38,006 bases of DNA from Acidobacteriota bacterium (GCA_040756905.1 JBFLYD010000061.1:1-38006); one strand, 5' to 3'. Shown: positions 13,857-32,017, counted from the stretch's first letter. Notes: generated by a model not told the origin, from the letters alone. Program-made: numbers and translations.

Positions 13857-15224
13857 TCAGATTTTATAATTTTTTATTTTGTTAAAAAGGGTTTTCCTGC
13901 TAATCCCCAGAGATTTTGCTGCCCTGGTCTTGTTTCCACTGGAATCCTTCAATGCTCTTTTTATCATTTCAATTTCCACCTTTTTTCTAATATTTTCAAC
14001 TGCCTCTGATAATGATTTTCCATAATCAATGAAATTCCCATAATCTCTCACAATCCTTGAAGGAAGGTCTTCTATTCCAATTAAATCATCCGAGGATAAG
14101 ACCATGGCTTCATATACAGCGTTTTCCAGTTCTCTCACGTTCCCTGGCCATAAATAATCTAAAAGACATTTCTTTGCCTCCGAAGATAAACCCTTTATAT
14201 CTATATTCAACTCTTTATTAAATTTTTTGATAAAATGCTCTATCAGTAATGGGATATCCTCCTTCCTTTCCCTTAAAGGAGGTAAATTCAATGTCACAGT
14301 CGAAAGTCTCCAGAAAAGGTCTTCTCTGAATCTTCCTTTTTTTACTTCCTCTTCCAGATTTTTATTGGTTGCTGCAATCACCCTTACGTTAACTGGAATA
14401 GCTTTGGAGCTTCCAACTCTCGTGATTTCTTTCTCTCCAATTGCTCTTAAAATTTTTACCTGAGAGCTTAAAGGCAATTCTCCAATTTCATCTAAGAGTA
14501 CAGTTCCTCCTTCAGCTAATTCAAATTTTCCTATCCTTCTCTCCTTTGCATCTGTAAATGAACCTCTTTCATACCCAAATAGCTCTGACTCCATTAAAGT
14601 TTCAGGAATAGCTCCGCAGTTTACGACTATGAAAGGCGCATTTTTTCGAAGAGAATTAAAATGAATAGCCCTTGCCACCAATTCTTTTCCTGTTCCTGTT
14701 TCTCCTATTATAAGAACTGTGGCATCTATTTTAATTAACTTTTCCATCAGAGAAAAAACATCATTCATTTTAGGGCTCATTCCGATGATATTTCCAAATC
14801 CATATCTTTTGTGAAGCTCGCTTCTAAGACTTTTCACCTCTTCCTTAAGATCACTCAATTCCAAAGCTCTTTTTATTATTAATATCAATTCCTCGTTGTC
14901 TACTGGTTTAGAAAGATAATCAAATGCTCCAAGCTTTGTGGCCTCTACAGCTGACCTTATCGTTCCATATGCTGTGAGGATGATTACATTTGTATGAGGT
15001 ATTATTTTTTTAATCTCCTGGAGAATCTCTATTCCATTTCTATCAGGAAGTTTTAAATCGAGAAGAATTATATCCGGTGCAAATTTTACTGCTTTTTCCA
15101 TCCCTTCTTTCCCATCAATAGCTGTTTCTATAGAGAATCCTTCTTCTCTAAGAACTTTTGAAAGAATGTTTCTTATCCCTTCCTCATCATCTACAATAAG
15201 TATTTTATTTTCCTTATCCCTCAT
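13857..15224 (-). CDS. NtrC-family sigma54 response regulator
   Basis: A 455-residue regulator of standard NtrC architecture. The receiver domain (about 1-125) has DD at residues 12-13, the phospho-accepting Asp at about 56 in LLDLKLPD and the lysine of YLSKPV. The AAA+ domain has Walker A GETGTGKE (about 173-180), Walker B LLDEIGEL (about 243) and the arginine-rich [10 protein letters not shown]. The C-terminus is a Fis-type helix-turn-helix ([20 protein letters not shown]). The sigma54-contacting loop reads GSFTDA instead of GAFTGA, so contact with sigma54 may be altered, though GAFTDA-like variants exist in natural regulators. It follows the histidine kinase gene with 231 bases between, containing a hairpin, and the two form a likely pair. 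Confidence 0.9.
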
Positions 15225-15330
15225 TTCCTTTTCCTTTAAGTTTTTTTACCTTTTGATTTTTAGTCTCTTTTCACTTAGCTATTTAATTTTTCTCCTTTTA
15301 ACTAATACAAACGCACTAAATAATTTGTAG

Positions 15331-15397
15331 GGCAACCCTTCAGAGCCTGCCCCGAACCTTGCCCTGAACTTGTTTCACGGGTTGATTCGGGGGTTGC
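15331..15397. repeat. GC-rich palindromic intergenic element
   Basis: A GC-rich island in AT-rich DNA between kinase and regulator genes. GGCAACCC at its left pairs with GGGGTTGC at its right, and CCCCGAA (15350-15356) pairs with TTCGGGG; an inner CCCTGAA/TTCACGG pairing is also possible. It could fold in the kinase-regulator transcript and reduce or process it, or be a dispersed REP-like repeat. Confidence 0.5.
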
Positions 15398-15455
15398 TTA
15401 ATACAAGGCTAAAGCCATACCCTCCATCTCAACTTATTTAATTCGTTTATATTAA

Positions 15456-16754
15456 TTAAACAGGTAATTTTAAAATTACCTCTGTCCCTTCTCCAGTCTC
15501 ACTTTTTACATCAATCTCTCCACCATGCTTTTTTATAATTCCATAACTTATGGAAAGACCCAATCCAGTTCCCTCCTCTTTTGTTGTGAAAAAAGGGTCA
15601 AATATCTTTTCCAGGTTCTCCTCCGTGATTCCAATTCCTGAATCTTTTATCCTTATCAAGACCTCTTCCCCTCTTAATTTATCCTTTCTGTTAACAGTTT
15701 CAACAGTAACTTCTATTTCTCCTCCATCTGGCATTGCTTCCATGGCATTCAAAAATACATTGAATAAAACCTGCTTCAACTGAGAAGAATCACCTTTTAT
15801 TTTTGGCTCATTCATGTAATTTCTTTTGATTCTTAGATTTTTATTTTGACTTTTGTCTATAAGCTGGATACAACTCTCTATCAGAGGAACTAATGAAATG
15901 TCCTCCATATGGGGCTCTTCGATTTTTGAAAAAGAAAGAAGAGACTTTACAATTGAATCAATCCTGTCTGTTTCATCCAGTATTTTTTCGATAAGTTCTT
16001 TTTTAGAGTTCTCCTCCCCATAATATTTTTTTATATATTGAAGAGTGCTTTTTATGGTTGTTAGAGGGTTCTTTATCTCATGGGCAGCTCCTGATGCCAA
16101 CTGACCTATTGTCGCCAGTCTATCCGCTCTTACCATTTTTATAAAGCTTTCCTTTTTTTCTTTTAAAAGCAAAGCATTCTCAAAAGCCAATGAGGCCTGA
16201 TAGGAAAAAAACCTCAAAAATCTAATTTCTTCAGAAGAATAAGGAGAACTATCCTTTTTTGTTCCAAGAAATACCATTCCTATAAGTTTATTCAATGATA
16301 TAAGGGGAAGACTTAACTCTACATTAAAAATACCAAGGATTTCCCTCTCTTTAAGAGCTAAATAATCAAAAATATTAGGATTTTTTCTTAGATTGAGTTC
16401 CTTCTTGTTTATTCTCAGCCATTTTATAAGACGATCATCTTTTGAAAATTTATAAAATTTTATTTCATCTTCATTTAACTCTAAGTTTATAGCTTGAGGC
16501 CCTGAGCCTGTGGCTCGGAGCTTGTAACCTGTAGCTATAATTGGCTCATATAAATCTTTTTCTGGATTTAAAAGATAAAAGAGAACTGTTTCAACTGGAA
16601 TAAATTCCTGAAGCTTTGCAAGAAGTGTTTTCTTTAAAATCTCATAATCCACAACATAGGTAACTGCCTTGATAACCTCCTGATAAGGGTCTTTCCCGTA
16701 TTCTTTAAAATAATCTTTTTTAATAAGAGTTTTTATCTTTTCTTTAATTCTCAT
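15456..16754 (-). CDS. GAF-domain sensor histidine kinase
   Basis: A 432-residue soluble histidine kinase. The N-terminal GAF-like domain spans about 45-195 (VETVLFYLLNPEKDLYEPII to SYQASLAFENALL). The dimerisation/phosphoacceptor helix follows with AAHEIKNPLTTIK (His about 225). The HATPase domain has the N box NVFLNAMEAMPDGG, G1 DSGIGI, F box DPFFTTK and G2 GTGLGLSI. No membrane segment is present, so it senses a cytoplasmic cue. I chose the ATG at 16754; the TTG at 16772 would add six residues. A GC-rich palindromic insertion lies in frame in the GAF domain. It faces cassette A head-to-head, and cassette B also carries a copy of this start region, which links the kinase to the cassette regulator's original locus. 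Its likely partner is the NtrC-type regulator downstream. Confidence 0.88.
   Translation of the reverse strand: MRIKEKIKTLIKKDYFKEYGKDPYQEVIKAVTYVVDYEILKKTLLAKLQEFIPVETVLFYLLNPEKDLYEPIIATGYKLRATGSGPQAINLELNEDEIKFYKFSKDDRLIKWLRINKKELNLRKNPNIFDYLALKEREILGIFNVELSLPLISLNKLIGMVFLGTKKDSSPYSSEEIRFLRFFSYQASLAFENALLLKEKKESFIKMVRADRLATIGQLASGAAHEIKNPLTTIKSTLQYIKKYYGEENSKKELIEKILDETDRIDSIVKSLLSFSKIEEPHMEDISLVPLIESCIQLIDKSQNKNLRIKRNYMNEPKIKGDSSQLKQVLFNVFLNAMEAMPDGGEIEVTVETVNRKDKLRGEEVLIRIKDSGIGITEENLEKIFDPFFTTKEEGTGLGLSISYGIIKKHGGEIDVKSETGEGTEVILKLPV
16491..16537. repeat. GC-rich palindromic repeat inserted in frame in kinase GAF domain
   Basis: A 47-bp GC-rich block inside AT-rich coding sequence, made of AGCTTG/AGCTTGTA/TGTAGCT and CCTGAGCC/GGCTCGG units, which fold on themselves. 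It encodes a GYKLRATGSGPQAIN-like loop on the minus strand without breaking the frame. It resembles dispersed AGCTTG-type minisatellite repeats. Confidence 0.45.
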
Positions 16755-17018
16755 CTTCTCTTCTTTTATCAAAGAAAAGAATTTAAGTCAATTGATATGG
16801 GTAAATTATTCACCCTATAGGAAAATATTTACACATAATACAAAGACCCTCTCTCTTTTACAAAGAGATTCCACTATTTATTCGGTGTAGCTCCATCGTT
16901 TGTCAGAAAAGGATTTAACTCACTTTTACCAAAATAAAAGCCATGTCACCAAAAATAAAACCATGTTTCAAAAAATAAAGCCATATAAACAAAAATAAAG
17001 CCATATGATTTTTGTTGA
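16750..17018 (+). repeat. Regulator cassette copy A (internally deleted)
   Basis: This region matches both ends of the 28230-29310 cassette. The left part (to about 16839) matches the upstream region of the AraC-type gene (GGAAAATATTTACACATA), and the right part (from 16840) matches its last 32 codons (YKDPLSFTKRFHYLFGVAPS, then stop) and the following direct repeats. About 830 bases of regulator gene are missing at the junction ACACATAATACAAAG, the same junction as in copy C. Differences from copy B within the coding remnant are largely synonymous, so the remnant was coding until recently. It lies just upstream of module A. Confidence 0.85.
16931..17010 (+). promoter_or_regulatory. Operator-like array, four exact 20-bp direct repeats
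   Basis: Four adjacent units with exact 20-base period and consensus AAAAATAAARCCATRTNANN (16931, 16951, 16971, 16991). The last unit contains CATATG and is followed by TTTTTGTTG, forming CAAAAAT-N11-ATTTTTG. Exact two-turn spacing places all units on one face of the helix, as expected for a dimeric or cooperative activator. Module A starts 280 bases downstream. The binding protein is inferred to be the AraC-type regulator at 28520. Confidence 0.65.
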
Positions 17019-17292: not shown

Positions 17293-17469
17293 ATGATATT
17301 CTTATTGGAACCCATTACTTTATTCGATTTGTTAAATGGATTTGAAATTGGTCCAGATTCAGGAACAGCTTCATCTGCAGCAGGTGTATGTGCAGAATGG
17401 TGTGAGACTTATTGTAGAAGTTGGCAAGGTTGCGATGTCTGTTATGGATGGAAGAGCTGCGCGGGATAA
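17293..17469 (+). CDS. Six-Cys RiPP precursor peptide (sactipeptide/ranthipeptide-type candidate)
   Basis: A 58-residue peptide starting at the ATG 17293 behind a strong AAAGGAGGTGAAAAGAG ribosome site. The leader (residues 1-31) contains ITLFDLLNGFEIGPDSGTAS. The core (32-58) is VCAEWCETYCRSWQGCDVC followed by YGWKSCAG. Cys lie at 33, 37, 41, 47, 50 and 56, so it begins as a CxxxCxxxC repeat. Cys-rich cores next to a radical SAM/SPASM enzyme are typical substrates for Cys-to-alpha, beta or gamma-carbon thioether bonds. It is the first gene of module A; a hairpin and 54 bases separate it from the maturase gene. The sequence is too short for usual gene calling. The modification type is inferred from the neighbour, not proven. 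Confidence 0.75.
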   Translation: MIFLLEPITLFDLLNGFEIGPDSGTASSAAGVCAEWCETYCRSWQGCDVCYGWKSCAG

Positions 17470-17481
17470 AGAGTTGAGCCA

Positions 17482-17513
17482 AGAGAGGCGGGGTATAAGA
17501 ATCCCGTCTCTCT
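17482..17513 (+). terminator. Hairpin between precursor A and maturase gene
   Basis: AGAGAGGCGGGGT (17482-17494) pairs with ATCCCGTCTCTCT (17501-17513). It lies 12 bases after the precursor stop and ends 10 bases before the maturase ATG, without a U-tract. It likely acts as a partial terminator or 3' stabiliser that makes precursor mRNA more abundant than maturase mRNA. Confidence 0.55.
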
Positions 17514-17523
17514 AAAGAAAAAA

Positions 17524-18849
17524 ATGAAAGCTTCAAAATATAATTTATTTTTAGAGGAAAAAGAATACGTTCTTTTATATAACTTATTATCACTTGCTTT
17601 AGTCAAATTAGAGAGTGAAAGTGCTGAGATTATAAAGACCATATTAGAAAATAAAAGCGATTTACAAAAATTACAAAGCTCTGAATTGTATAAAAAATTA
17701 ATTTATGGAAAATTTTTGGTTGAAGACGATGTTGACGAACTTAAAATTCTAAAAGTTAGAAATATGCTCGGAAGGTTTTATAAAAGAAGTTTTGGTTTGA
17801 CAATTGCTCCAACTCTAAATTGCAATTTTAAATGCACATATTGTTACCAGAGAATTAAGAAAATCGACATGAGTGAACAAACGCAAGATGATTTAATAGA
17901 TTTTACTAAAAAAGCTTTAATAGACAAGATACTTTTTGGAGTTACATGGTACGGAGGAGAACCCCTTTTAACAGAGGACATTATTTTTAGATTATCTGAG
18001 AAATTTATTGAGATTTGTAATGAGAGTAAAATACCTTATTCTTCTGGAATTATAACTAACGGTTATTTATTAGATGATAGAATTATCGATAAATTAGAAA
18101 ATTACCAGATTAATAATATTCAAATAACAATGGATGGACCAAAGGATATTCATAATAACAGAAGGAAATTAGAGAATGGAGATCCTACCTTTGATAGAAT
18201 ATTGAATAATATAAAGAATCTATCCAATAAGACAAAGGTTAGAATTATTTTAAGAGTTAATATAGACAAAGAAAACTATGCAAGAGCACCAGAACTTTTA
18301 GAATTGTTAGAAAAAGAAGGGATATTAAAAAGAATAAATATTAGTTTTTCACCCGTTCTTGGTTACACAGAGACTTGTAGTAATTATGTGGATAAATGTT
18401 TTACAAGAAAAGAATATGCAGAATTGCAAATTAAATTTTCAAGAGAAGTCTTAGATAAAGATCCTATTATTAAAAAAATGCCCTCACCGAAACTTGGATA
18501 TTGCTCTGCGGATTCGTGGGCAAATTATGCAGTAGATCCAGAAGGGCTCTTATATAAATGCTGGACAGACATAGGAGAGAAAGAATGGTCTGTAGGAAAT
18601 ATTAAAGATAATATTGTTACAAGTAAATTATACGATTATCTCGGATGGGATCCCTTTGCATATGAGGAATGCGTGAAATGCTTATATCTGCCGATTTGTA
18701 TGGGAGGCTGCCCAAGAATTAGACTTGCGGGAAAAAAACCACCTGAAATGTGTGAATTATGGAAATATAATTTAAAGGAAATATTAAAATTGTTTTATCT
18801 TATTCATCAAAGAGAAGAGACACAGAAAAGTGATATTCCTAATAAGTGA
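17524..18849 (+). CDS. Radical SAM/SPASM peptide maturase
   Basis: A 441-residue enzyme. The N-terminal ~85 residues look like a RiPP recognition element or linker region that would bind the leader. The radical SAM motif CNFKCTYC lies at residues 100-107, followed by TWYGGEPLL. The C-terminal SPASM domain contains CSADSWANYAVDPEGLLYKC (about 324-343), then CVKCLYLPICMGGC (about 383-396) and PPEMC, enough cysteines for two auxiliary [4Fe-4S] clusters. This architecture is that of sactipeptide/ranthipeptide maturases such as AlbA and the CxxxC-repeat group. The substrate should be the six-Cys peptide immediately upstream. Two M16 peptidases and an exporter follow, an order like sboA-albA...albEF. 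It has no clear Shine-Dalgarno; translation may depend on the hairpin just upstream. Confidence 0.88.
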   Translation: MKASKYNLFLEEKEYVLLYNLLSLALVKLESESAEIIKTILENKSDLQKLQSSELYKKLIYGKFLVEDDVDELKILKVRNMLGRFYKRSFGLTIAPTLNCNFKCTYCYQRIKKIDMSEQTQDDLIDFTKKALIDKILFGVTWYGGEPLLTEDIIFRLSEKFIEICNESKIPYSSGIITNGYLLDDRIIDKLENYQINNIQITMDGPKDIHNNRRKLENGDPTFDRILNNIKNLSNKTKVRIILRVNIDKENYARAPELLELLEKEGILKRINISFSPVLGYTETCSNYVDKCFTRKEYAELQIKFSREVLDKDPIIKKMPSPKLGYCSADSWANYAVDPEGLLYKCWTDIGEKEWSVGNIKDNIVTSKLYDYLGWDPFAYEECVKCLYLPICMGGCPRIRLAGKKPPEMCELWKYNLKEILKLFYLIHQREETQKSDIPNK

Positions 18850-18926
18850 CCAAAAGTTATGAGGATTACTTTAAAGAGAGTAGGTATTAAAATTTTGAAT
18901 ATACATGGTATATAAAAACGAAAAAA

Positions 18927-20315
18927 ATGAAAAAAAGCAGACTTAGCAAAGTTACAATTATAAAAGTTCTATTTAAAACATTAATTTTTATTATTCTTAC
19001 AAATTTACCCTTTTTTGCACTCAGTGAATTTTATAAAGAATGGGAAGAAAAGATAATATGTAATACCCTTAGTAATGGTCTGAAAATTCTTATCCTTCCT
19101 AAGCACGAAACCTCTACTGTTTCTTTTCTCACATATGTCAATATTGGGAGTTTAGATGAAAAGCCATTGAAATCCGGCCTTGCCCATCTCGTGGAACACA
19201 TTTTGTTATTTGAAGGAACTGAGAGTGTTAGAATCTCCGATTGTGATTCAGAAAATATAAATATTCTACAAATACAAGGAGAAGGGGGTATTAATATTGA
19301 CGCAAAAACATCCCCAGATTGTACACTTTATTTTTGTAGTCTCCCTTCTGATAAAGTAGAATTGTTTATCAAATTCCAATCTGAAAGTCTTGTAAATCCT
19401 TCTTTGAGATCATTTTATCAAGAAAAAAATATAGTTCTTGAAGAGAAATTTCTTCATGATGAAAAATCACTTCAGAAGTTAAATGCTCTAATGCTTTCAG
19501 TAGCTTTTCTAAGGCATCCTTATAGAAACCCCATAGGAGGATATATATCTGATCTTGAGAATATTGAGATCAAGGATGTTTTAGATTTTGTTAAAAAAAA
19601 TTACATATCGAATAAAATACTACTGGCCATTGTAGGAGATGTAGATCCTCACCGAGTTATTAATTTAATTGCACATTATTTTAAATCTTTCAATCGAAAA
19701 GATTCTGCTAAAACTATTATCTCCGATGAACCTTTACAGAATGGCGAACGAAGAATAGAAGTGGAAAATTTAGATTACCCTGCTATTTTAATTGCATATC
19801 GTAGACCTAATGCCAATAATCCAGATGACCCTGTTTTTGATATCTTAGCTTCACTTTTTGCTGGCTATAGAAGCTCACTTCTTTATAAACAAATAGTAAT
19901 AGATGAGAAAATAGCCTCATCTGTTGTTTGTAATCCAAAATTCCCAGGGGCAAAATATTCTACGCTTTTCGTGTTTTGGGCATTTCCATTTTTAAATAAT
20001 TCTATTCCACAGATAGAATCCATAATTTATCAAAATATCGAAGACTTTAAAAGAAGACTTTTAACTGAAAATGAATTAAATAAAGCTAAGAATCATTTAT
20101 TAGCTAATTTTGAAAAAAAATTGCAATCAAATTTGGGAATAGCACAACGATTAGCTTATTTTGAAATGATAAAAGGGGATTGGAAAAAATTATTTCAATA
20201 TGAGAATGAAGTCAGAAATGTATCAATAAAAGATATTAAACGAGTTATAAATAAATTTTTTAATAAAAGAAATAGAGTTGTCGTTTTTACTGTTGATCCT
20301 GAAAAGGATGAGTAA
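18927..20315 (+). CDS. M16-family zinc peptidase, catalytic subunit
   Basis: A 462-residue M16 (insulinase-type) peptidase. An N-terminal hydrophobic segment (IIKVLFKTLIFIILTNLPFF, about 11-30) anchors or exports it. The inverted zinc motif HLVEH is at residues 87-91 (SGLAHLVEHILLFEGTE), and a downstream glutamate in NIVLEEKF (about 172) supplies the third ligand. The C-terminal M16 domain begins around 260. M16 enzymes that accompany peptide maturation genes, such as AlbE/AlbF and PqqF, cleave leader peptides. Its likely task is removal of the precursor A leader or degradation of the leader after export. The gene is followed, 27 bases later, by a related non-catalytic subunit, and the two probably form a heterodimer. 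Confidence 0.88.
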   Translation: MKKSRLSKVTIIKVLFKTLIFIILTNLPFFALSEFYKEWEEKIICNTLSNGLKILILPKHETSTVSFLTYVNIGSLDEKPLKSGLAHLVEHILLFEGTESVRISDCDSENINILQIQGEGGINIDAKTSPDCTLYFCSLPSDKVELFIKFQSESLVNPSLRSFYQEKNIVLEEKFLHDEKSLQKLNALMLSVAFLRHPYRNPIGGYISDLENIEIKDVLDFVKKNYISNKILLAIVGDVDPHRVINLIAHYFKSFNRKDSAKTIISDEPLQNGERRIEVENLDYPAILIAYRRPNANNPDDPVFDILASLFAGYRSSLLYKQIVIDEKIASSVVCNPKFPGAKYSTLFVFWAFPFLNNSIPQIESIIYQNIEDFKRRLLTENELNKAKNHLLANFEKKLQSNLGIAQRLAYFEMIKGDWKKLFQYENEVRNVSIKDIKRVINKFFNKRNRVVVFTVDPEKDE

Positions 20316-20342
20316 AATTGAAAATTATTTGTGGGAGTTAAA

Positions 20343-21764
20343 ATGAAAAGAATTAAATTGATTCTTTTTCCATTAATCTTTATTTTTCTTTCATTACCAT
20401 CGGATCCGAATATCAAAGACACAAGTAATATTCCTTCAAAAAAATTTGATATTCATTCAATTCGTCATCACGAATTTTCTAATGGAATGAAATTGCACCT
20501 TCTGAAAGTTGACAATTCTGAAAAAATTGAAATATTTGGTATTATAAGAGCAGGCTCTGTATTTGATCCTACCGATAAAATCGGATTAGCTACTATTGCT
20601 GGGGAAATGCTTAGAATGGGAGGTACAAAATATATTAATGCTAAAGTAATAGATGAAGAACTTGATTCATTGGGAACTAAACTTTTTATTAAGATTTCCT
20701 TAATTAATGGTCAGATAAGAATGAGTTGTAACAAAGATAACTTTAAACGTTCTTTGAAAATATTATCTGAAATCCTTATTAACCCATCATTTGAAACTGA
20801 TAGATTAAGTTTAGCCAAAAAAAATTTATTGGATTTTATGGAAAGAGAAAAAAAAGATCTTGATTCTTTAGCCTTTACTAAATTTCAAAAGCTTTTATAT
20901 GGGGAAAATAGTCCCTATGCAAGAACTCCAACTAAAGAGACAACAAATAATATTAAACAAGAAGACCTTTTTAAATTTTATAACCAATTTATTCACCCTA
21001 ATAATATTAGTTTAGCCATTTGGGGAAAATTTGATAAGGATGAGATAATAACCTCTTTCGAAGAAGTTTTTGGAAAATGGCCAAAGTCAATCAATAAAAA
21101 CCCTCCTTTCCCTGAAGTAAAGGTCAAAAGAGAGGCATCGGTTAATTTAATTGTGAAAGAAAATGTAAATCAATCAAAAATAAGAATAGGACATTTAGGC
21201 ATTATGTTAGATAAGGATAATCCTTATAATAAAGATTATATAGCTTTATTGATATTGGATTTATTATTTGGAGGACAATCATTTTCCTCAAGACTTTACC
21301 AAAAGATACGGTCAGAATTAGGGTTATCTTATGACATTTTCTCCATGTATTGGCCTTCTTTTTGTTATCCAGGAGCCTTCGTTATTTCTGCATCTACAAG
21401 AAGTAATACCACCGTAGAAACTATTCAATGCATTTTAAATGAATTAAATAAAATTTGTGAAGAACCCATTACCGATAAAGAAGTTAATCAAGTCAAAGAA
21501 TTTCTTATAAATTCATATGTTTTTCAATTTGATTCCCCAGAAAAAATATTAGCTCGCATTTTATATTATGAATATCAAGGGCTTCCATTGGATTATTTCC
21601 AATATATTATAAATGAAATACCAAATATAAATGCACAAGATGTAAAAGGAGCTGCTTTAAAATATCTTCATCCGGAATTGTTATGCATATTAGTAGTCGG
21701 AAATGAAAAGAAATTTGACAAACCATTGTCTTATATAGGAAAAGTTGACATTTTAAGTCAATAA
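20343..21764 (+). CDS. M16-family peptidase-like protein, non-catalytic subunit
   Basis: A 473-residue paralogue of the preceding gene with an N-terminal signal (IKLILFPLIFIFLSLPS). The position equivalent to HxxEH reads GLATIAGEMLRMGG, so the zinc ligands are absent. The C-terminal domain retains the YQKIRSELGLSYDIFSMYW segment that carries the substrate-binding Arg/Tyr pair of M16B partner subunits. A catalytic plus R/Y-bearing pair is the known M16B heterodimer plan. The ATG at 20343 is chosen because GGGAG lies five bases before it; the GTG at 20331 is the upstream extension. It is part of module A and should complete the leader peptidase. Loss of the zinc site is seen directly; pairing is inferred. 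Confidence 0.85.
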   Translation: MKRIKLILFPLIFIFLSLPSDPNIKDTSNIPSKKFDIHSIRHHEFSNGMKLHLLKVDNSEKIEIFGIIRAGSVFDPTDKIGLATIAGEMLRMGGTKYINAKVIDEELDSLGTKLFIKISLINGQIRMSCNKDNFKRSLKILSEILINPSFETDRLSLAKKNLLDFMEREKKDLDSLAFTKFQKLLYGENSPYARTPTKETTNNIKQEDLFKFYNQFIHPNNISLAIWGKFDKDEIITSFEEVFGKWPKSINKNPPFPEVKVKREASVNLIVKENVNQSKIRIGHLGIMLDKDNPYNKDYIALLILDLLFGGQSFSSRLYQKIRSELGLSYDIFSMYWPSFCYPGAFVISASTRSNTTVETIQCILNELNKICEEPITDKEVNQVKEFLINSYVFQFDSPEKILARILYYEYQGLPLDYFQYIINEIPNINAQDVKGAALKYLHPELLCILVVGNEKKFDKPLSYIGKVDILSQ

Positions 21765-21824
21765 ATATTGACTATGAGAGTTAGACTAAACGATAAAGAA
21801 AAAATTAATTAATAAGGAGGAGAT

Positions 21825-22973
21825 ATGAAATTAAAAATTGAGAAGAAAACCACTCTTATTTTACTAATTCTTTATTTCATCACTCCTTTTGCAACATCTG
21901 AAGAAAATGCTTATCCAATTATAAAGACCCCCAAAAATCCTCTTTATGGGAGTTACGAGCTTAAGCTGAGGAAGGATTTAATAATAGGGAATGAGTCTTA
22001 CGATCAATATCTATTTGGTTCAATTAATGGAATTGAAGTCAATGATAGATATATGTTTGTTTGTGATTCGAAAATGGTGAGGATCCAGGTTTATGATTTA
22101 AAGGGAAGATATGTTAGAACTATTGGGCGGAAAGGAAACGGACCAGGTGAATTCTTAATACCGAACACTTTTTGTGTAAGCAGAAATGGAAATATCTATG
22201 TTCACGATGTAATGAGGAGAAGAATGATAGTATTTGACCAAGAAGGTAACCATAAAAGGGATATAACATTAGAAAAAATTTTAGCAGGAAAATTTTATGT
22301 AGATGAAAATGGATATATTTATTCCTCTATCCTTGAATTCGAATCCGAAAATGACATGTATATCTATTTCATTAAGATGAATCCTCAAGGAAAATTGCAA
22401 AATATTTTCAGAAAAGAATTTTATTTGTCCCCAATTTTCGATACAACTTCTGGAAATAAGATGAGAATTTTTTATGATCATCCTTATCTGGCCAATTTAT
22501 ATTTCACTGTGACTAATGGAAATACATTAGTATTGATGAATTCCCTGGTTTATGAATTAGATTTCTTATCTCAAGATGGAAAGGTTTTAATGAAGATTGC
22601 AAAAGATGAAAAGAGCGAAAAAGTAAGCGAAGAAGAAAAGGAAGGGGTGTTTTCTGATAGATTTAAAGATACCCCTAAGAGCGTATTAAAAAATGTTACC
22701 TTTTCCAAGCAAAGACCTTATTCATCTAATATCCTGACGGATGAAACAGGGAGAATATATGTAGAAAGATTTAAACCTGTGACAGAAGAAGATAAGGGTT
22801 ATAGTTATGATATATTCAATAAAAAAGGTGAGTATTTATATCGATCGAAAATCGGTTTCATAGCCAACCTAATAAAAAATGGATACTTGTATAACATTTC
22901 AGTAAAAGAAGAAGCGGGGGAAATTAGAATTATTCGTTATAAGATTGAAAATTGGGGTGAAATGAGATTTTAG
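21825..22973 (+). CDS. Secreted six-bladed beta-propeller protein
   Basis: A 382-residue protein with a signal peptide (LILLILYFITPFATS) and NHL/six-bladed beta-propeller repeats: VNDRYMFVCDSKMVRIQVYD, LKGRYVRTIGRKGNGPGEF, VSRNGNIYVHDVMRRRMIVF and later DETGRIYVERF. The GRKGNGPGEF signature is typical of bacterial six-bladed propellers found near secreted peptides and ABC permeases. It has a strong ribosome site (AAGGAGG). Its place between peptidases and exporter suggests a periplasmic or outer-membrane role in module A, for example peptide binding or immunity. Another propeller occupies a comparable place in module B. The function of these proteins is not established. Confidence 0.82.
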   Translation: MKLKIEKKTTLILLILYFITPFATSEENAYPIIKTPKNPLYGSYELKLRKDLIIGNESYDQYLFGSINGIEVNDRYMFVCDSKMVRIQVYDLKGRYVRTIGRKGNGPGEFLIPNTFCVSRNGNIYVHDVMRRRMIVFDQEGNHKRDITLEKILAGKFYVDENGYIYSSILEFESENDMYIYFIKMNPQGKLQNIFRKEFYLSPIFDTTSGNKMRIFYDHPYLANLYFTVTNGNTLVLMNSLVYELDFLSQDGKVLMKIAKDEKSEKVSEEEKEGVFSDRFKDTPKSVLKNVTFSKQRPYSSNILTDETGRIYVERFKPVTEEDKGYSYDIFNKKGEYLYRSKIGFIANLIKNGYLYNISVKEEAGEIRIIRYKIENWGEMRF

Positions 22974-22980
22974 AAGGGAG

Positions 22981-23127
22981 ATGGGTATTTTTAATTTAAT
23001 TATAAAATGGGTGTTAAGAGCGGGAAGGGAGTTAAGTATTTACATATTAATAATTCGAGGAAGGGGCTTAACATCTTTAGTCGAGAATCTCTTGAGAAAG
23101 TTAAAAGATGATTTTGAATTATTTTGA
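22981..23127 (+). CDS. Possible 48-residue small protein
   Basis: An ATG follows directly after GAAGGGAG and opens a 48-codon frame (MGIFNLIIKWVLRAGRELSI, then YILIIRGRGLTSLVENLLR and an acidic end). It starts seven bases after the propeller stop, and its stop overlaps the TTG start of the exporter gene (TTGA). It fills the intergenic space exactly, which argues for translation and coupling. It is amphipathic and basic with no recognised family. It could instead be a chance frame or an altered leader for the exporter gene. The Shine-Dalgarno is unusually close to the ATG. Confidence 0.35.
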   Translation: MGIFNLIIKWVLRAGRELSIYILIIRGRGLTSLVENLLRKLKDDFELF

Positions 23128-24908
23128 AAGAAAGAAGATACAGTAATAAAATGTTAAATGTACAAAATAGAAAAGAGCGAAGTAAAAAATTAAAATTCTC
23201 ATCCCTGAAACTTCTCTTTCCCTATCTAAGAACGCACTGGAAAAAGGTTATTATAGCTTCCATCCTTATGATAATTCTCTCCCTTTTGGCCTTACCTACT
23301 CCATATCTAATGAAATACATTGTCGATGATGTCATTCTGGCTAAGAATATCAAGCTTCTAAATCTAATAATATTCCTTCTTATTGGGATTCAATTTTTCA
23401 AATTAATCTTTTCTTTTCTCACTAATTACCTTTTCTCTGTATTTAATCAGGAGATATTGGTAAAAATAAAAAAGGATCTATTTCATCGTTTATTACGCCT
23501 TCCCCTCTCATTCTTTGATTCGCAACAGACAGGGTATCTTTTATCAAGAATAGGGGAGGTAGAAGGACTTGGATTCTTTTTCTCCAATTCCATTGTCAGA
23601 ATCCTCATTGGAATCCTTGAATTTCTCTTCTGTCTATGGATTCTTCTCTACCTAAACTGGAGACTCACTCTTATATCGTTAATAGTTATTCCCTTTCTTT
23701 ACTTTGCGACTCGATTCTACTCAAGATCTATAAGGAAAACAAGTAGAGAGTTGATGGAGAAAGGAGCTAATCTTTCAAAGAGAATTCAGGAGTCTCTCTC
23801 AGGGGTTGAGGTGATTAAATCCTTTTCCGCCGAAGATCGAGAAACAACCAAGATACATATCTCCTTAGATGAGCTAAAACAAACAAGCATAAAAAGGAAT
23901 ATCCAGTTTACCATATCCTCAGAGATTCTATCTTTGATTGGAGCTCTTGGAGGATTTATCGTCCTATGGTACTCAGGATGGAAGATAATTAAGGGCTCTT
24001 TCACTATAGGGACATACATTGCCTTTTCAGCCTATTTAGCAAAACTCTATGGACCAACCCAGATCTTGGCTAACATAGGACTTACCCTTCAACCAGCTAT
24101 TACTACATTAAACAGAGTCTCAGAGCTATTTGAGCTCGGAGAGGAAGGAGAGGAAGGGATAAGAGTTTCGAAGCTAACAGGAGAGATTGAATTCAGGGAT
24201 GTCTATTTCAGCTATGATAGTAAAAAAGAGGGTGTTCTCAAGGGAATCACTCTCAAGATTAATCCAGGGGATAAGATTTTAATTGCAGGACCTAATGGCT
24301 CAGGTAAAAGTACAATAGTGAAACTAATCCTTGGACTTTATAAGATCGATAGAGGAAAGATAACTATAGATGGTCATGATATAAACACTCTTTCCCTTTC
24401 ATCTCTAAGAGAGAGGATCTCCTTTGTCTCTCAGAATGTATTTCTCTTTAATGACACAATAAGAAACAATATCCTTTACAGTAGACCCGATGCAAGTGAA
24501 ATGGAGGTAAAGGAAGCAGCAAAACTCTCTGGTGCTCATGAGTTTATCATGAATCTTGAAGATGGATTCAATACTCCAATTGGAGAGACAGGAAAGAAGC
24601 TATCAGGAGGAGAGAGGAAGAAGATATCCATTGCCAGAGCCATCCTCAAAGACTCAGACATAATCATTTTTGATGAGGCAACCTCAGAGCTTGATTCTGA
24701 ATCAGAGAGGAGAATTGAAGAGCTTATAACTGAGCACTTCAAATACAGAACTTGTATCATCATCTCCCACAGGGCATGGCGAACCAATTCTTTGAACAGG
24801 ATATATCTCTTAGGAGATGGAAGAGTTTTGGATCAGGGAAGCCATGATGAGCTCTCTCAGAGAAACCCATATTATCGTGAACTTCATCGGACTCAAGCAA
24901 GATCTTAA
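23124..24908 (+). CDS. ABC-type exporter (fused membrane and ATPase domains)
   Basis: A 594-residue ABC half-transporter. The membrane domain covers about 35-340 with six hydrophobic helices (first ASILMIILSLLALPTPYLM). The ATPase domain has Walker A GPNGSGKST (about 390), signature KLSGGERKK (about 491), Walker B IIIFDEATSELD (about 512) and switch IISHRAWRT. There is no N-terminal C39 peptidase domain, so leader removal is left to the M16 pair. In module A it should export the mature peptide. The frame opens at a TTG (23124) overlapping the preceding small frame; the first ATG is at 23151 and neither has a good ribosome site. Its codon and base use look somewhat less AT-rich than the flanking genes, suggesting a different history. 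Confidence 0.88.
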   Translation: MKERRYSNKMLNVQNRKERSKKLKFSSLKLLFPYLRTHWKKVIIASILMIILSLLALPTPYLMKYIVDDVILAKNIKLLNLIIFLLIGIQFFKLIFSFLTNYLFSVFNQEILVKIKKDLFHRLLRLPLSFFDSQQTGYLLSRIGEVEGLGFFFSNSIVRILIGILEFLFCLWILLYLNWRLTLISLIVIPFLYFATRFYSRSIRKTSRELMEKGANLSKRIQESLSGVEVIKSFSAEDRETTKIHISLDELKQTSIKRNIQFTISSEILSLIGALGGFIVLWYSGWKIIKGSFTIGTYIAFSAYLAKLYGPTQILANIGLTLQPAITTLNRVSELFELGEEGEEGIRVSKLTGEIEFRDVYFSYDSKKEGVLKGITLKINPGDKILIAGPNGSGKSTIVKLILGLYKIDRGKITIDGHDINTLSLSSLRERISFVSQNVFLFNDTIRNNILYSRPDASEMEVKEAAKLSGAHEFIMNLEDGFNTPIGETGKKLSGGERKKISIARAILKDSDIIIFDEATSELDSESERRIEELITEHFKYRTCIIISHRAWRTNSLNRIYLLGDGRVLDQGSHDELSQRNPYYRELHRTQARS

Positions 24909-25079: not shown

Positions 25080-26450
25080 ATGATATTCATCTTGACCAAA
25101 AAAGAAATATTAGAAGACATTTACAACATAAGATTTATTATATTAGTTCTCTTGTGTTCTATCCTAATCCCTTTAACATTGTTTATTAACCAGAAAGCTC
25201 TTGATCGAGATATAATAGATTATTATCAAACACTTACTAAATATGAAGAAAAACTAAAAAGCGGATCCCATAATACTCTTACATTTGAAGCAAGCGGATT
25301 CCGGCCTCCCTCTGAATTGAGAATTTTCAGCATTGGATTAGATACTACTCTACCAAGTTCGATAATAATTACACGTGACGAAGGAATAAAATCAGGTGAA
25401 AACAAAGCAGAAGATAGTCCGTATCATGCTTTTCTTGGGAAAATAGATTTTTTATTTATCATAAAGGTAGTTATGTCTCTCGTTGCTATGATTTTTACTT
25501 TCAATGCTATTTCTGGAGAGAAAGAACAGGGAACGATAAGGCAGATACTTTCAAATTCAATACATCGCTATAAAATAGTAATAGCAAAATATCTCGGAAA
25601 TTTTATTATTCTCCTTTTTCCATTTATACTTGGATTAACCTTAGGATTGTTGATAGTTATTACAAGTTCGGACACCCAATTACTCAGTAGTAATCATTTG
25701 TTAAGAATTATTTTTATGTTCCTAATCGCATTAATCTATATTTCTCTATTCTTGAACCTTGGTTTGTTTATTTCAGTAATAACAAAAAGATCATGGACAT
25801 CAATAGTTTTTCTCTTATTCATCTGGGTCATTTTCGTGCATGTCATTCCGCAAATATCAGGAATGATCGCTGAGACCTTATATCCTGTAAAATCTGTGAG
25901 AGTTTTGAATATTGAAAAAGATATCCAGAAAAAAAGTATTGAAAAAGAACAAAGCAAAGAGTTGCAAGAAATATTCATGAAGAATAATTATGATGAGCTT
26001 CGAAAACCAATAGTAGAAAAATACAAAAAAATCTTAGCAGAAAGATTAAGAAATATTGATCAGGAACATAAAAATAGAAAAAGAGTTCAGAGAATTATTG
26101 CTAACACAATATCAAGAACTTCTCCTTCATCATCGCTGACTTTTATCTTTTCAGAACTGTCAAATACAGGAATTTTAGAGATGGAAAATTTCATAACAAG
26201 CGCCCTGCAATTTCAAAACCTCATAGAAGCTAATGTTTATGCTGACACTTACACTGACGATGTGGGTTCAGGAATGTCAGTAAAGTTAGGAGCAGGAGAT
26301 TTTTCAAATATACCTCGATTTAATTATCGAAAAGTTGAATTTGTTAAATCTATTTTATCAATTCAACTTGATCTCTTTTTACTTATTCTATTTAATGCAC
26401 TGTTATTTTCTTTGAGTGCTTTTCTTTTTATTACTTATGATGTCAGATAA
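25080..26450 (+). CDS. ABC-2 type permease
   Basis: A 456-residue membrane protein of the ABC-2/DUF3526-like group. It has an N-terminal helix (IILVLLCSILIPLTLFI), a periplasmic domain of ~100 residues, then helices around IIKVVMSLVAMIFTFNAI, IILLFPFILGLTLGLLIVI and SIVFLLFIWVIFVHVIP, a second soluble region and a last helix. The coupling segment SGEKEQGTIRQILSNSI and the C-terminal YDVR are shared with the permeases at 32069, 33380 and 37349. Such permeases need a separate ATPase, and none of that type is in the window. The gene lies 171 bases after the exporter gene behind GAGAAGGA. A role in peptide export or self-protection is inferred. Confidence 0.82.
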   Translation: MIFILTKKEILEDIYNIRFIILVLLCSILIPLTLFINQKALDRDIIDYYQTLTKYEEKLKSGSHNTLTFEASGFRPPSELRIFSIGLDTTLPSSIIITRDEGIKSGENKAEDSPYHAFLGKIDFLFIIKVVMSLVAMIFTFNAISGEKEQGTIRQILSNSIHRYKIVIAKYLGNFIILLFPFILGLTLGLLIVITSSDTQLLSSNHLLRIIFMFLIALIYISLFLNLGLFISVITKRSWTSIVFLLFIWVIFVHVIPQISGMIAETLYPVKSVRVLNIEKDIQKKSIEKEQSKELQEIFMKNNYDELRKPIVEKYKKILAERLRNIDQEHKNRKRVQRIIANTISRTSPSSSLTFIFSELSNTGILEMENFITSALQFQNLIEANVYADTYTDDVGSGMSVKLGAGDFSNIPRFNYRKVEFVKSILSIQLDLFLLILFNALLFSLSAFLFITYDVR

Positions 26451-26546: not shown

Positions 26547-27401
26547 ATGTTTGAAGAAGAAAAATCTGAAGAAACAAAATTTTGTAGAAGAAAGGTTTTA
26601 AAAGCTTTATTTATTGGTGTATTAAGCTTAATACCAATTCCAAAACTACTATCACAACAAACAGAGAAGAGACAGCTTAAAAAGCAAGTTAAAATAAATT
26701 CAGGCGTGGAACCGTGTAATGAGGAATCCATTGTAGCCAATATTCAACCACAATTTAAAATTGGTCAGACATTCAAATATAAAGCGATAAGAACCGATAA
26801 AAAATTACCCGAAGATGTGGTTGGTAAACAAGTTGCACCAGGTAAGATTGTGTTAACGAGTGAGCCAATACCAATAGAACAGACTATCAAAATTGAGGGA
26901 TACGAAGAATACAAAGATGAAAAGTGCTTTTTAATTAAAAGGGAGGCAATCCTTGAAAATCCTGTTTTACAGTTCGCTTCAGAAATTCCTGAAAAAACAG
27001 TTGAAGAAAAAACAACTACATATATTAATGAAGCAGGAAAAATTCTTTATTCTGAGTCAAAAACGATTTTAAAGGAAGGGCAAAGTACAAGTGTAAGTAC
27101 TAATAAAGTGCATAGTCTGCCATTCTCAGCGGATATATATTATTTTTATGGTTACTGGATGTTAGCTCTTTCTCAAGACTTTTCCTGGGAATGTTTACAA
27201 AATACCCCAAAGGAGCAAATCTTAAGGAGTATTAAAGTAAAAGGCAATGAAAGAATTAATGGAAAAAACTGTTATGTTGTAGAAAAGTTATTCAGGGCTG
27301 AATCAACGGGTTCAGAAATTATCACATTCTGGATCGATCTTAAAAACAGGGTTGCGATTCAAGTTAAAAAAGGGAATTCAATAATTAAACTCATCTTCTG
27401 A
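26547..27401 (+). CDS. Tat-type secreted protein of unknown function
   Basis: A 284-residue protein starting at the ATG 26547 behind AGAAAGGAGGAAAA; an upstream in-frame start at 26460 lacks a ribosome site. The N-terminus FCRRKVLKALFIGVLSLIPI resembles a twin-arginine signal (RRxxLK followed by a short hydrophobic stretch). The mature part is beta-rich and contains two similar halves, each with a GYEEYKDEKCFLIKRE or GNERINGKNCYVVEKLF segment, ending with FWIDLKNRVAIQVKKGNSI. The pattern G.E.I.G..C..V... F.WID resembles the LolA-like/DUF3108-type lipoprotein-associated folds and parallels the module C protein at 36671. It is the last gene of module A. A Tat signal would mean export in folded form; this is inference. 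Confidence 0.65.
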   Translation: MFEEEKSEETKFCRRKVLKALFIGVLSLIPIPKLLSQQTEKRQLKKQVKINSGVEPCNEESIVANIQPQFKIGQTFKYKAIRTDKKLPEDVVGKQVAPGKIVLTSEPIPIEQTIKIEGYEEYKDEKCFLIKREAILENPVLQFASEIPEKTVEEKTTTYINEAGKILYSESKTILKEGQSTSVSTNKVHSLPFSADIYYFYGYWMLALSQDFSWECLQNTPKEQILRSIKVKGNERINGKNCYVVEKLFRAESTGSEIITFWIDLKNRVAIQVKKGNSIIKLIF

Positions 27402-27470: not shown

Positions 27471-27872
27471 TTATACTATCCAGTAAATAGGTATTTTGTT
27501 CTCAAGGATTTTAAATTCAGGGTCTCCTGTAACAAGATCTGCATTAAATTGAATGGCTGTAGAAGCAGCAAAAGCATCAGCATAGGAGATTGGATTTTTT
27601 GACTTTATCTTAGCAGCGTTAAGGATATTAATTTCATCTGGCACCACAAGGTTTAAAGGCCATTTTTTTATAAAGGCAATTGCTTTATTCGCTATTTCTT
27701 CATCAGTCTCTCTTATAAGGATGTAGTATATCTCTCCGATATTGATCCAATTCAAATAGATTTTTATTTTGCCTTCTTCAGCCTTTAATAAAAGCTCTTT
27801 GACTCTGTCTTTCCCTTTCTCTCCTTTTTGATAAGCCAGAACAGAGTAACTATCCAAAGCAAAGTTCTTCAA
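27471..27872 (-). CDS. vapC: PIN-domain toxin (VapC-like)
   Basis: A 133-residue PIN-domain ribonuclease. The N-terminus FALDSYSVLAYQKGEKG has the first acidic residue of the active site, NIGEIYYILIRE the second, and SYADAFAASTAIQFNADLVT with GDPEF the rest. Length and order match VapC toxins, which cleave RNA, often tRNA or rRNA. The start overlaps the antitoxin gene by four bases (ATGA), the usual coupling for toxin-antitoxin pairs. It lies between modules A and B and converges with module A. Whether it is active is unknown, but no key residue appears lost. Confidence 0.88.
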   Translation of the reverse strand: MKNFALDSYSVLAYQKGEKGKDRVKELLLKAEEGKIKIYLNWINIGEIYYILIRETDEEIANKAIAFIKKWPLNLVVPDEINILNAAKIKSKNPISYADAFAASTAIQFNADLVTGDPEFKILENKIPIYWIV

Positions 27873-28123
27873 AGGATCACCTTTTTTGCTTTTTCAAATT
27901 TTTCTTCTTCTTTTCTATTCTCATCAAGGACTTCCTTCACTGTCTTTTTGAATTTCAACCATCCTTCAGCTCTTTCAATTGGGTTATCTGGAAGAGGAAT
28001 TAGAATAATCTGATCTCCAAGATCAAGGAACTCGACTATAGTTCCTTCCTTTATATCATATTTTTTTCTCAATTTAGATGGTATAACTAATTGCCCTTTT
28101 TTGAAGACTTTTGAAGAATACAT
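27869..28123 (-). CDS. vapB: AbrB-family antitoxin (VapB-like)
   Basis: An 84-residue antitoxin. The N-terminal SpoVT/AbrB swapped-hairpin domain (KVFKKGQLVIPSKLRKKYDI, then KEGTIVEFLDLGDQIILIPL) binds DNA as a dimer. The C-terminal tail (WLKFKKTVKEVLDENRKEEE) would wrap around and neutralise the toxin. The start has a ribosome site (AAGGAGGAGCAATG). It is the first gene of the pair and normally represses its own promoter. It is located 107 bases before the left end of cassette B. A second toxin-type fragment lies beside cassette C, but that one belongs to a different PIN subgroup. Confidence 0.88.
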   Translation of the reverse strand: MYSSKVFKKGQLVIPSKLRKKYDIKEGTIVEFLDLGDQIILIPLPDNPIERAEGWLKFKKTVKEVLDENRKEEEKFEKAKKVIL

Positions 28124-28519: not shown

Positions 28520-29248
28520 ATGTCTAAAAAGGTCTTGGTTATCTCTGAGGACAAAAGAATCTTTGATTTTATCAGGAGTTCTTTAGGTTCTTCTGTTTTA
28601 ATTGAAAATCCTGGAATTGATGAAATAAATCAAAAAGATAAACCCTATGAGTTTATATTCTTGGGATGTGATTATAGGTGTTCTTTTATATTTTGCATGA
28701 GAAAGTTTCTATTTCTAAAGATGAATAAAAAAATTCCTTTTTTAGTCATAAGACCCATATTGCTTGAAAGAGGATATGAATCATATGGAGGGTTTTTATC
28801 TTCTTTTTTTGAAACCTATACACTTTCTTCCTTTCAAGAAGAAATTCCAAGGAAGATAAAAAACTCAGAGCATTATGGATGTTCTCCAGGATGGATGATT
28901 CACCCTTCTAATCTTCTTTTTAAGATTTCCAAGGTTCAAAGAGAAATTGTTGAGAACCCATGGAAAAGATTTAACCTTTTTTCATTCTCAGAGAATGTTT
29001 CTCTATCTCCTTCATGGCTTTCTTTAAAATTTAATGAAATTTCAGGGATATCCTTTGAGAGATTCTCAATAAGGATAAGATTCTGTTACTCCCTCTGGGA
29101 ACTTCTCTCCACAGAAAAACAGATTAAATTAATTGCTTATGAGAGAGGGTACAAAGACCCTCTCTCTTTTACAAAGAGATTCCACTCTTTATTTGGAGTA
29201 GCTCCATCATTTGTGAGAAAAGAATTCAACACACTTTCATCAAGATAA
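28520..29248 (+). CDS. AraC-type regulator with degenerate receiver-like N-terminus
   Basis: A 242-residue regulator. The N-terminus (KKVLVISEDKRIFDFIRSSL ... EFIFLGCD) has the strand-helix order of a receiver domain but lacks the usual phospho-acceptor and acidic pocket, so it may be a pseudo-receiver. The C-terminal third (about 150-242) is an AraC/XylS DNA-binding domain with two helix-turn-helices; the second ends in YERGYKDPLSFTKRFHSLFG and VAPSFVRKEF. It is the only intact copy; its last 32 codons recur in cassettes A and C. Its stop codon lies inside the first of three 20-bp direct repeats that precede module B. It is the best candidate for binding these repeats and activating all three modules. 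Direct evidence for binding is not in the sequence. Confidence 0.8.
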   Translation: MSKKVLVISEDKRIFDFIRSSLGSSVLIENPGIDEINQKDKPYEFIFLGCDYRCSFIFCMRKFLFLKMNKKIPFLVIRPILLERGYESYGGFLSSFFETYTLSSFQEEIPRKIKNSEHYGCSPGWMIHPSNLLFKISKVQREIVENPWKRFNLFSFSENVSLSPSWLSLKFNEISGISFERFSIRIRFCYSLWELLSTEKQIKLIAYERGYKDPLSFTKRFHSLFGVAPSFVRKEFNTLSSR

Positions 29249-29301
29249 AAGCCATGTCACCAAAAATAAAACCATATAAACAAAAATAAAACCATATGAT
29301 T
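29242..29301 (+). promoter_or_regulatory. Operator-like array, three 20-bp direct repeats
   Basis: Units begin at 29242, 29262 and 29282 with exact 20-base period and the same consensus as in copies A and C. The regulator's TAA stop is inside the first unit. The last unit leads into ATTTTTGTTGAA, and the next gene (29362) starts 61 bases after the array, which is suitable promoter spacing. Confidence 0.65.
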
Positions 29302-29361
29302 TTTGTTGAAATAAAGAAATTCTTATGTATGAATATAAGTAACTTAGGTGGAGAAATAAAA

Positions 29362-30378
29362 ATGGCTTCCAAAAAAATCTTCATTTTCATACTGCTAACA
29401 ATGATTATTCTTATACTCATTTATAATCTCTATAAATATGAATTTTTATTTCACCATTCCCTTAGATATGGAGATAAAATTAAAAAATTCGAGTTTAAGA
29501 ATCCTGAACTTGGGAAAGTAACACTGAAAGAGGGACAATGGAACTTAATCATAGTGGATAGAAGTTTAGAAGAAGACTATAGTCTTATTAGATATATTAA
29601 TGCTTTATTTACTAAAAAATTTAAGGATTTGGGACTGAATATTATATTATTTAGTAAGTCTGAGAGAAATATTGCAGAAACCTTCAGGAGAAAATTTAAC
29701 ATTTTATTTCCTATTTTATCTATTAAAGATAATTCCAATATTCTTAAAGAATTATCAAAGCTTAGAGAAAGTCAGCGATGGATTCTTATCATTGATCCTA
29801 ATCTAAAAGTCGAATTTATTTCTGATTTTATAAAAGATGAAGATATCAGACAATTATTGGAAAAATACATATTAGGAAAGATTAGTTATATTGATGTAAT
29901 TAAAGAGGAAAAATTGAAGGTTGGCGATTCTTTCCCTCCAATAGAGGTTATAAATTTAGAATCCGGTGAAAAAAAAGTTATTACTAAAGATTTCACTTCA
30001 TCTCCTCATTTATGGATTATCTTCACATCAAACTGTATTTCTTGTGCTTTAGAATCTCATTTACTTATGTGGAGTTTAATAGAAAAGAACTTAGAGAAAA
30101 AATCAAATTTATCAATGGGCTTGATTTTCAGTCCTTATTTCAATAAAGAAGAAATTATTTTTAGAGTTAAAAAACTAAATATTCAAACCCCAATCTTCTT
30201 AGCTGAAAGCGAGCTCTATAATATTGAAGATACTTATTATAAAAGGCCATATGGACAAGATGATGTTATTGTTATCAGGACAGATCTAAAAAATTTTATA
30301 ACTTATTCAGAATCACTCTCGACTTTTCTCAATCATATAAAAGGAGGTTATCTCAATGCAAAAACTTCGTTGTTTTAG
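29362..30378 (+). CDS. Membrane-anchored thioredoxin-fold protein with CISC motif
   Basis: A 338-residue protein starting at the ATG 29362 behind AGGTGGAG (an upstream frame extension to 29296 runs into the cassette). A signal anchor (IFIFILLTMIILILIYNLY) places it on the outer face of the inner membrane. Two thioredoxin/TlpA-like domains follow: the first (about 35-170) lacks cysteines; the second begins at VGDSFPPIEVINLESG (about 195) and has the redox-type CxxC in FTSNCISCALES (about 228). It could form or shuffle disulfide bonds in the Cys-rich peptides encoded further downstream in the operon. Its 3' end overlaps the propeller gene by 23 bases. The CxxC is seen; the partnership is inferred. 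Confidence 0.72.
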   Translation: MASKKIFIFILLTMIILILIYNLYKYEFLFHHSLRYGDKIKKFEFKNPELGKVTLKEGQWNLIIVDRSLEEDYSLIRYINALFTKKFKDLGLNIILFSKSERNIAETFRRKFNILFPILSIKDNSNILKELSKLRESQRWILIIDPNLKVEFISDFIKDEDIRQLLEKYILGKISYIDVIKEEKLKVGDSFPPIEVINLESGEKKVITKDFTSSPHLWIIFTSNCISCALESHLLMWSLIEKNLEKKSNLSMGLIFSPYFNKEEIIFRVKKLNIQTPIFLAESELYNIEDTYYKRPYGQDDVIVIRTDLKNFITYSESLSTFLNHIKGGYLNAKTSLF

Positions 30379-31423: not shown

Positions 31424-31602
31424 TAAAAAAATTCTTAATGGGTCTACTTGTTGTTGTCTTCGCTCTGAGCCTATTTTTAGCCGTTGTTCCGATTAATGTT
31501 TCTGGAGCATGTTGCACTTCTGATGATAAGAAAAGTACATGTTGTGGACCATGCTGTAAAGCTGGCCCAACTTGGTGCGAAGCCGGAAAATGCGCTACAT
31601 AG
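31420..31602 (+). CDS. Secreted eight-Cys peptide 1
   Basis: A 60-residue peptide with a Sec signal (MIKKFLMGLLVVVFALSLFL, continuing to VSGA) and a ~31-residue mature part containing eight cysteines: ACCTSDD, STCCGPCCKAGPTWCEAGKC. Proline and tryptophan (GPTWC) are also present. The start lies seven bases after GGAGG and overlaps the propeller stop. The Sec signal makes cytoplasmic radical SAM processing unlikely; the cysteines more likely form disulfides or bind metal in the periplasm or outside. It resembles in plan, not in sequence, the small secreted peptides that accompany six-bladed propellers in Bacteroidota (NVEALA group). A hairpin terminates or stabilises the transcript just downstream. 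The role is unknown. Confidence 0.75.
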   Translation: MIKKFLMGLLVVVFALSLFLAVVPINVSGACCTSDDKKSTCCGPCCKAGPTWCEAGKCAT

Positions 31603-31623
31603 TTCATGCTGGTAGTTTTTCTT

Positions 31624-31648
31624 AGGGAGGGAATGTAATCCTCTCCCT
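31624..31648 (+). terminator. Hairpin after peptide 1
   Basis: AGGGAG (31624-31629) pairs with CTCCCT (31643-31648), with further weak pairing inside. It lies 21 bases after the stop, followed by TCTTAAATAATA. It probably is a leaky terminator or 3' stabiliser, since genes of the same module continue downstream. Confidence 0.45.
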
Positions 31649-31724
31649 TCTTAAATAATAATAACAATAAAATATGAGAGAAGAAATTGTGAAAAAGAAG
31701 TGTTAGATTAAACATAATGAGAGG

Positions 31725-31802
31725 AGATAATAGAATCGCAGTTTTTAAATCAGAGGCAAATGAACAGTTTATTATTAAACCGAAATTTGAAGGAGGTGAA
31801 CT
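31725..31802 (+). repeat. Duplicated propeller 3' fragment before peptide 2
   Basis: The stretch AGAATCGCAGTTTTTAAATC through GAGGCAAATGAACAGTTTATT and TTAAACCGAAATTT matches codons near the end of the propeller gene (about 31227-31290) and then joins GAAGGAGGTGAACT, the sequence just before peptide 1. This is a tandem duplication scar with an internal deletion. It brought the peptide's ribosome site with it. Confidence 0.75.
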
Positions 31803-31994: not shown

Positions 31995-32017
31995 CTCATG
32001 ATGCTGGTAGTTTTTCG

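Follow-up and report, generated by a model that had tools for sequence, protein, structure and literature searches.

What kind of peptide pathway is encoded at positions 17,293 to 24,908 of the 38,006-nucleotide stretch GCA_040756905.1 JBFLYD010000061.1:1-38006 from an Acidobacteriota bacterium? A preliminary description had read it as a subtilosin-like, sbo-alb-type pathway in a double-membrane cell. The stretch, here called the window, is one entire contig (C61) of a genome of 2.56 Mb in 69 contigs, about 98% complete, which was examined in stretches. We found that the locus, taken as a whole, is probably a cluster for a ribosomally synthesized and post-translationally modified peptide (RiPP) of the Clo7bot/CtpM-like radical S-adenosylmethionine (SAM)/SPASM clan in a diderm bacterium. 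BamA was found in the genome (TIGR03303, 477 bits; cut-off 297), and the claim of a diderm host therefore stands. A search of the assembly for 16S found none.

Gene order, maturase and precursor

As listed below, the plus strand carries in order a six-Cys peptide, a radical SAM/SPASM enzyme, an M16 peptidase pair, a propeller, an ATP-binding cassette (ABC) exporter, an ABC-2 permease and a protein with a twin-arginine translocation (Tat) signal. Supporting evidence is given in brackets.

17293..17469, plus strand: precursor peptide, 58 amino acids (Shine-Dalgarno sequence, SD; leader motif; similarity to the precursor of locus L029)
17524..18849, plus strand: radical SAM/SPASM maturase, Clo7bot (CtpM)-like (TIGR04334, 409 bits; tree)
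18927..20315, plus strand: M16a, active subunit of an M16B zinc peptidase (HLVEH...E; 3amj_C, 3e-39)
20331..21764, plus strand: M16b, inactive M16B partner (without HxxEH; 3amj_B, 5e-33; alternative start ATG 20343)
21825..22973, plus strand: six-bladed beta-propeller, predicted to be exported, with a signal-like N-terminus (PF17170/DUF5128, E=7e-22)
22981..23127, plus strand: doubtful open reading frame (ORF) of 48 amino acids, probably no gene (no family match)
23124..24908, plus strand: MsbA-type half-size ABC exporter (ABC_membrane and ABC_tran; start TTG 23124 or ATG 23151)
25080..26450, plus strand: ABC-2 type permease (PF12679; no dedicated ATPase within the cluster)
26547..27401, plus strand: Tat-signal (RRKVLKAL) protein, predicted to be exported (PF17131, E=0.006, weakly LolA-like)

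Every gene named in the preliminary description was found near the position given there. The interval drawn earlier stops at 24908, and co-directional genes reach 27401. From the precursor through the M16 pair and propeller to the exporter, the genes share one direction and are tightly spaced.

The maturase carries most of the assignment. Its top curated model was TIGR04334 (Clo7bot maturase CtpM) at 409 bits, followed by TIGR04463 (300) and CefB (291), with PapB (130) and SCIFF (95) lower. The profile check of the SPASM subfamily that had been proposed thus places the enzyme in a RiPP clade. The CxxxCxxC motif (CNFKCTYC; C100/C104/C107) and seven SPASM Cys residues (C327, C346, C383, C386, C392, C396 and C410) were invariant in 16 proteins. 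In the tree the maturase grouped with that of L029 (support 99/98), and CtpM of Paraclostridium bifermentans fell in the same, weakly resolved part. The ctpM gene of that species was the best single-gene-annotated family match among named plasmids, with 41% identity over 95%. Among solved structures, CteB (a SCIFF/ranthipeptide maturase, 8e-16) and anaerobic sulfatase maturases led the matches.

The precursor has a leader beginning MIFLLEPITLFDLLNG and a C-terminal core, CAEWCETYCRSWQGCDVCYGWKSC, with six Cys residues, the first at residue 33 of 58. An ideal ribosome site, 'aaggaggtg', precedes its ATG. The peptide begins MIFLLEP, which fits the leader start M-x-[FYW]-h-h-x-P. ORFs with this motif numbered 20 within 1.5 kb of a related radical SAM gene on the same strand and five elsewhere (695 kb, both strands), most of the five still within the same clusters; the motif was derived from the tested loci, so this enrichment is in-sample and descriptive. 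Annotated Clo7bot peptides (MKFIKKP...) and CefA (MQYLVQP...) carry it as well. The window precursor also resembles the L029 precursor, with a score reached by 1 of 2000 shuffles. Regular every-fifth Cys spacing is absent, and Cys is a common trait of precursors throughout the Clo7bot/TIGR04463/CefB clan. With a six-Cys precursor, a maturase of the RiPP clade, an M16 pair and an ABC exporter, the radical SAM/SPASM RiPP pathway proposed earlier is borne out in outline.

Several observations weigh against the reading as a Clo7bot-like cluster with its own leader peptidase. The precursor matched no family model, TIGR04333 included (profile search, none at E≤5), and the maturase lies under the curated cut-off of TIGR04334 (409 against 600 bits). 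Because both curated cut-offs failed, the cluster, judged by its sequences, is placed near the Clo7bot family and not filed as a member. In the maturase, a search for a RiPP recognition element gave no PF05402 match, and comparison with the PqqD profile gave Prob 2.6. Its AlphaFold model is of low confidence (mean pLDDT 49.5, below 50 over residues 1-86). M16 pairs occur in several copies in this genome, and only in the window is one contiguous with a maturase. Of 33 other stretches with related maturases, compared in two sets, none in the first has M16 and only L091 and L092 do in the second; opposite-strand genes stand between M16 and maturase there, so these were judged non-contiguous. A literature search found no paper on Clo7bot, NVEALA or Cys-every-fifth peptides; because no paper found mentions Clo7bot, the chemistry of the clan is not established here.

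Export, leader removal and alternatives

The route that we infer, including the bond chemistry, the order of steps and the roles of the M16 pair and propeller, would run as follows. The maturase would recognise the hydrophobic MIFLLEP leader and modify the six-Cys core, most likely by forming Cys thioethers as in related families. The MsbA-type exporter would then carry the peptide over the inner membrane, with the leader probably still attached because a domain search found no C39 peptidase domain in the exporter. A periplasmic M16 heterodimer would cleave the leader off, and the propeller may serve as a binding partner in the envelope.

Export is suggested by the neighbours of other maturases. 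Neighbourhoods of related maturases were compared in 33 stretches besides the window, and an MsbA-like exporter adjoins the maturase in L027, L030, L031, L043, L088, L089, L090, L096, L097 and L099. The window exporter is 79% identical to that of a Ruminococcin C (RumMC)-type cluster on contig C20 of the same genome (L064, G000:C20, 904-6001), which holds a sactipeptide maturase of the RumMC type (NF035951 at 427 bits, under the cut-off of 720), a Cys-rich peptide containing two blocks of CxCxC (2622-2822), a propeller and an ABC exporter. An exporter shared with this putative RiPP cluster supports a role in export. The propeller stands ahead of the exporter in both clusters. In the 10 kb examined, the C20 cluster has no M16 pair. 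The possible small protein of the preliminary description corresponds to the ORF at 22981-23127; its status as a gene is weak, with no family match and no counterpart between the propeller and the ABC gene in C20.

For leader removal, M16a has HLVEH at residue 87 and the Glu E166, and M16b lacks HxxEH and retains R331...Y338 (KIRSELGLSY). Both N-termini are hydrophobic and signal-like, as judged by hydropathy and not by a trained predictor; this agrees with a periplasmic and not with a cytoplasmic location. A link between the M16 pair and the RiPP is plausible on these sequences; taken alone, the M16 leader-peptidase step would be about as probable as its absence. In L030 a Met-zincin metallopeptidase, unrelated to M16, lies between the ABC exporter and the propeller, as if the peptidase slot were filled variously.

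It is a real, if less than even, possibility that the RiPP cluster is true and that envelope genes with no part in it, those for the M16 pair, the propeller, the ABC-2 permease and the Tat protein, lie downstream by chance, the leader being cut by another protease or never. This would reject the protease step only and is compatible with a Clo7bot-clan cluster. Both M16 pairs and propellers are multi-copy in the genome (25 matches for the propeller family, so that the propeller's role is less certain), M16 is missing near nearly all related maturases, and paralogues of the ABC-2/LolA-like pair occur at 32-38 kb of the window, those of the permease at 32069, 33380 and 37349. Against this, the genes from precursor to exporter are co-directional and closely spaced, the propeller precedes the exporter in the window and in C20, and propellers also lie beside maturases in L029, L031, L032 and L034. 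The Tat-signal protein is possibly outside the pathway in any case. For it the start ATG 26547, with a strong SD, is favoured over TTG 26460, and its AlphaFold model is of low confidence (mean pLDDT 42.3).

Whether thioethers are formed at all was also considered. The maturase could introduce another radical modification, a cyclophane or other, with the Cys residues engaged in disulfides or metal binding in the periplasm. That no paper found mentions Clo7bot leaves room for this, and cyclophane-forming SPASM families do appear in the match list, at lower score. However, Cys is common to the precursors of the clan, and the cyclophane models score far under those for Cys-rich peptides, which makes this alternative unlikely. 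Between a sactipeptide, with S-C-alpha thioether bonds, and a ranthipeptide, with S-C-beta/gamma ones, the sequence cannot decide.

The subtilosin-like reading itself would have AlbA-type S-to-C-alpha bonds, cytoplasmic cleavage and core cyclisation of the AlbEF type, and ABC export. The Sbo precursor consists of a Cys half and an acceptor half, with a leader of 8 amino acids and a macrocyclic core of 35. The broad list of parts does match, with a Cys-containing precursor, a radical SAM/SPASM enzyme, an active/inactive M16 pair and an ABC protein, and the sbo-alb genes and roles of AlbEF have been described (PMC12300986). However, the window precursor has no such two-half layout and bears an xFLLEP-type leader. 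The family ranking places the maturase elsewhere, as Clo7bot/TIGR04463/CefB-like, and the sactipeptide maturase SkfB (E=1e-4) is far behind CteB; this comparison was made with AlbA itself left uncompared. The M16 subunits, previously called AlbEF-like, are closest to SPH2681/SPH2682 and differ in subfamily and, by their signal-like N-termini, in predicted location. AlbE and AlbF (structure of AlbF, 7Y8U; PMC12731061) were not among the best 60 matches listed for these subunits, including those of a relaxed search with M16b. In the families that were compared, the sbo-alb-type label is not supported, and we regard this pathway as very improbable here. That the six-Cys peptide is a chance ORF beside a radical SAM enzyme with another target agrees with its lack of a family model and is next to negligible, given the ideal SD, the enrichment of the leader motif and the likeness to the L029 precursor beside a sister maturase.

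Regulatory elements and neighbouring loci

Further elements lie between and upstream of the first genes.

17482..17513, plus strand: perfect 13-bp stem-loop (-22.6 kcal/mol)
16926..17004, no strand assigned: direct repeats, three overlapping 39-nt copies at a spacing of 20 nt, unit about CAAAAATAAAGCCAT
15456..16772, minus strand: histidine kinase of a divergent two-component pair
13857..15224, minus strand: NtrC-type sigma-54 response regulator of the same pair

The hairpin stands between the precursor stop and the maturase start; none of 500 mononucleotide shuffles was as stable, and no T-run follows. It is probably an intercistronic attenuator or an element stabilising the mRNA. No clear SD precedes the maturase gene, and the hairpin together with this difference in SD would favour output of the precursor over that of the maturase. 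The divergent two-component pair (13857..16772) is a candidate regulator of the cluster, and the direct repeats, in the 520-bp gap between the histidine kinase and the precursor, may be regulator sites. No sigma-54 -24/-12 site was found upstream of the precursor; sigma-70 and terminator scans gave results no better than shuffles.

Downstream, the minus strand encodes a PIN-domain protein and a small AbrB-like protein (27471-28123), likely a toxin-antitoxin pair bounding the cluster. Beyond them lies a second peptide locus (28520-37936) with an AraC-type HTH protein, a redoxin-like protein, a propeller, three ABC-2 permeases, a LolA-like protein and tandem Cys-rich peptides of 60-63 amino acids with Sec-type signals (31420-31602 and 31803-31994). 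The PqqD-domain protein at 35584 is the sole PF05402 match in the genome. In L029 (G045:C33, 4294-4774), twin signal-peptide, Cys-containing peptides lie by two propellers and the sister maturase cluster, in a layout like that of the window at 30-32 kb. The reverse complement of the start of contig C20 recurs at the window end (37846-38004), which indicates that the assembly broke in a repeat.

The same genome holds a second Clo7bot-like cluster (L027, G000:C7, 394-5913) with a maturase, a 70-amino-acid, 12-Cys precursor, a TPR protein and an ABC exporter. In L028 (G000:C54, 15782-18807), a sigma-54-type activator is followed by pieces of two radical SAM genes at a contig end. A related maturase in L105 (G287:C71, 11801-15697) is followed by an ATP-grasp-like protein, with short peptides of the CALCSEDPRFC type on the opposite strand; as its genes read, the locus is a RiPP cluster of another layout within the same phylum.

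Comparison with known systems

The Clo7bot/CtpM/TIGR04463/CefB maturase clan is known from curated models and is little studied. The nearest system is Clo7bot/CtpM (TIGR04333/TIGR04334) of Paraclostridium bifermentans pHD0315_2-1, which is like the window in maturase family, in the MKFIKKP kind of leader start and in its Cys-rich core. There the order is Clo7bot peptides, ctpM, one gene and ABC exporter, so that the order precursor-maturase-ABC is common to both. In contrast, Paraclostridium has nine small ORFs where the window has a single precursor, and the window adds an M16 pair, a propeller and a diderm host, besides its scores against the two family models. It is a compact example, with one precursor and with candidates for both leader peptidase and exporter. 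TIGR04463 and CefA/CefB were the second and third best families for the maturase. CefA of Methylomagnum shares the leader start, whereas its precursor is long and is accompanied by an extra radical SAM methyltransferase, unlike the window.

For the M16 subunits, the best solved match was SPH2681/SPH2682 of Sphingomonas A1 (PDB 3AMJ), M16a with the active chain and M16b with the inactive one. That heterodimer is described with general peptide substrates and with no RiPP link stated (PMC12731061). The cluster suggests how diderm bacteria could complete such peptides in the envelope. Tentatively, and with rather more doubt than confidence, we propose a diderm form of Clo7bot-like maturation in which the modified precursor leaves the cytoplasm with the leader attached and is trimmed by a periplasmic M16 heterodimer, convergent with AlbEF across the membrane, the propeller being part of an export module that a sactipeptide-type cluster reuses. 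That last cluster, the RumMC-type one on C20, differs from the window in maturase family and precursor and shares with it the propeller and the exporter. The reuse of this propeller-exporter arrangement makes the proposed role in export testable.

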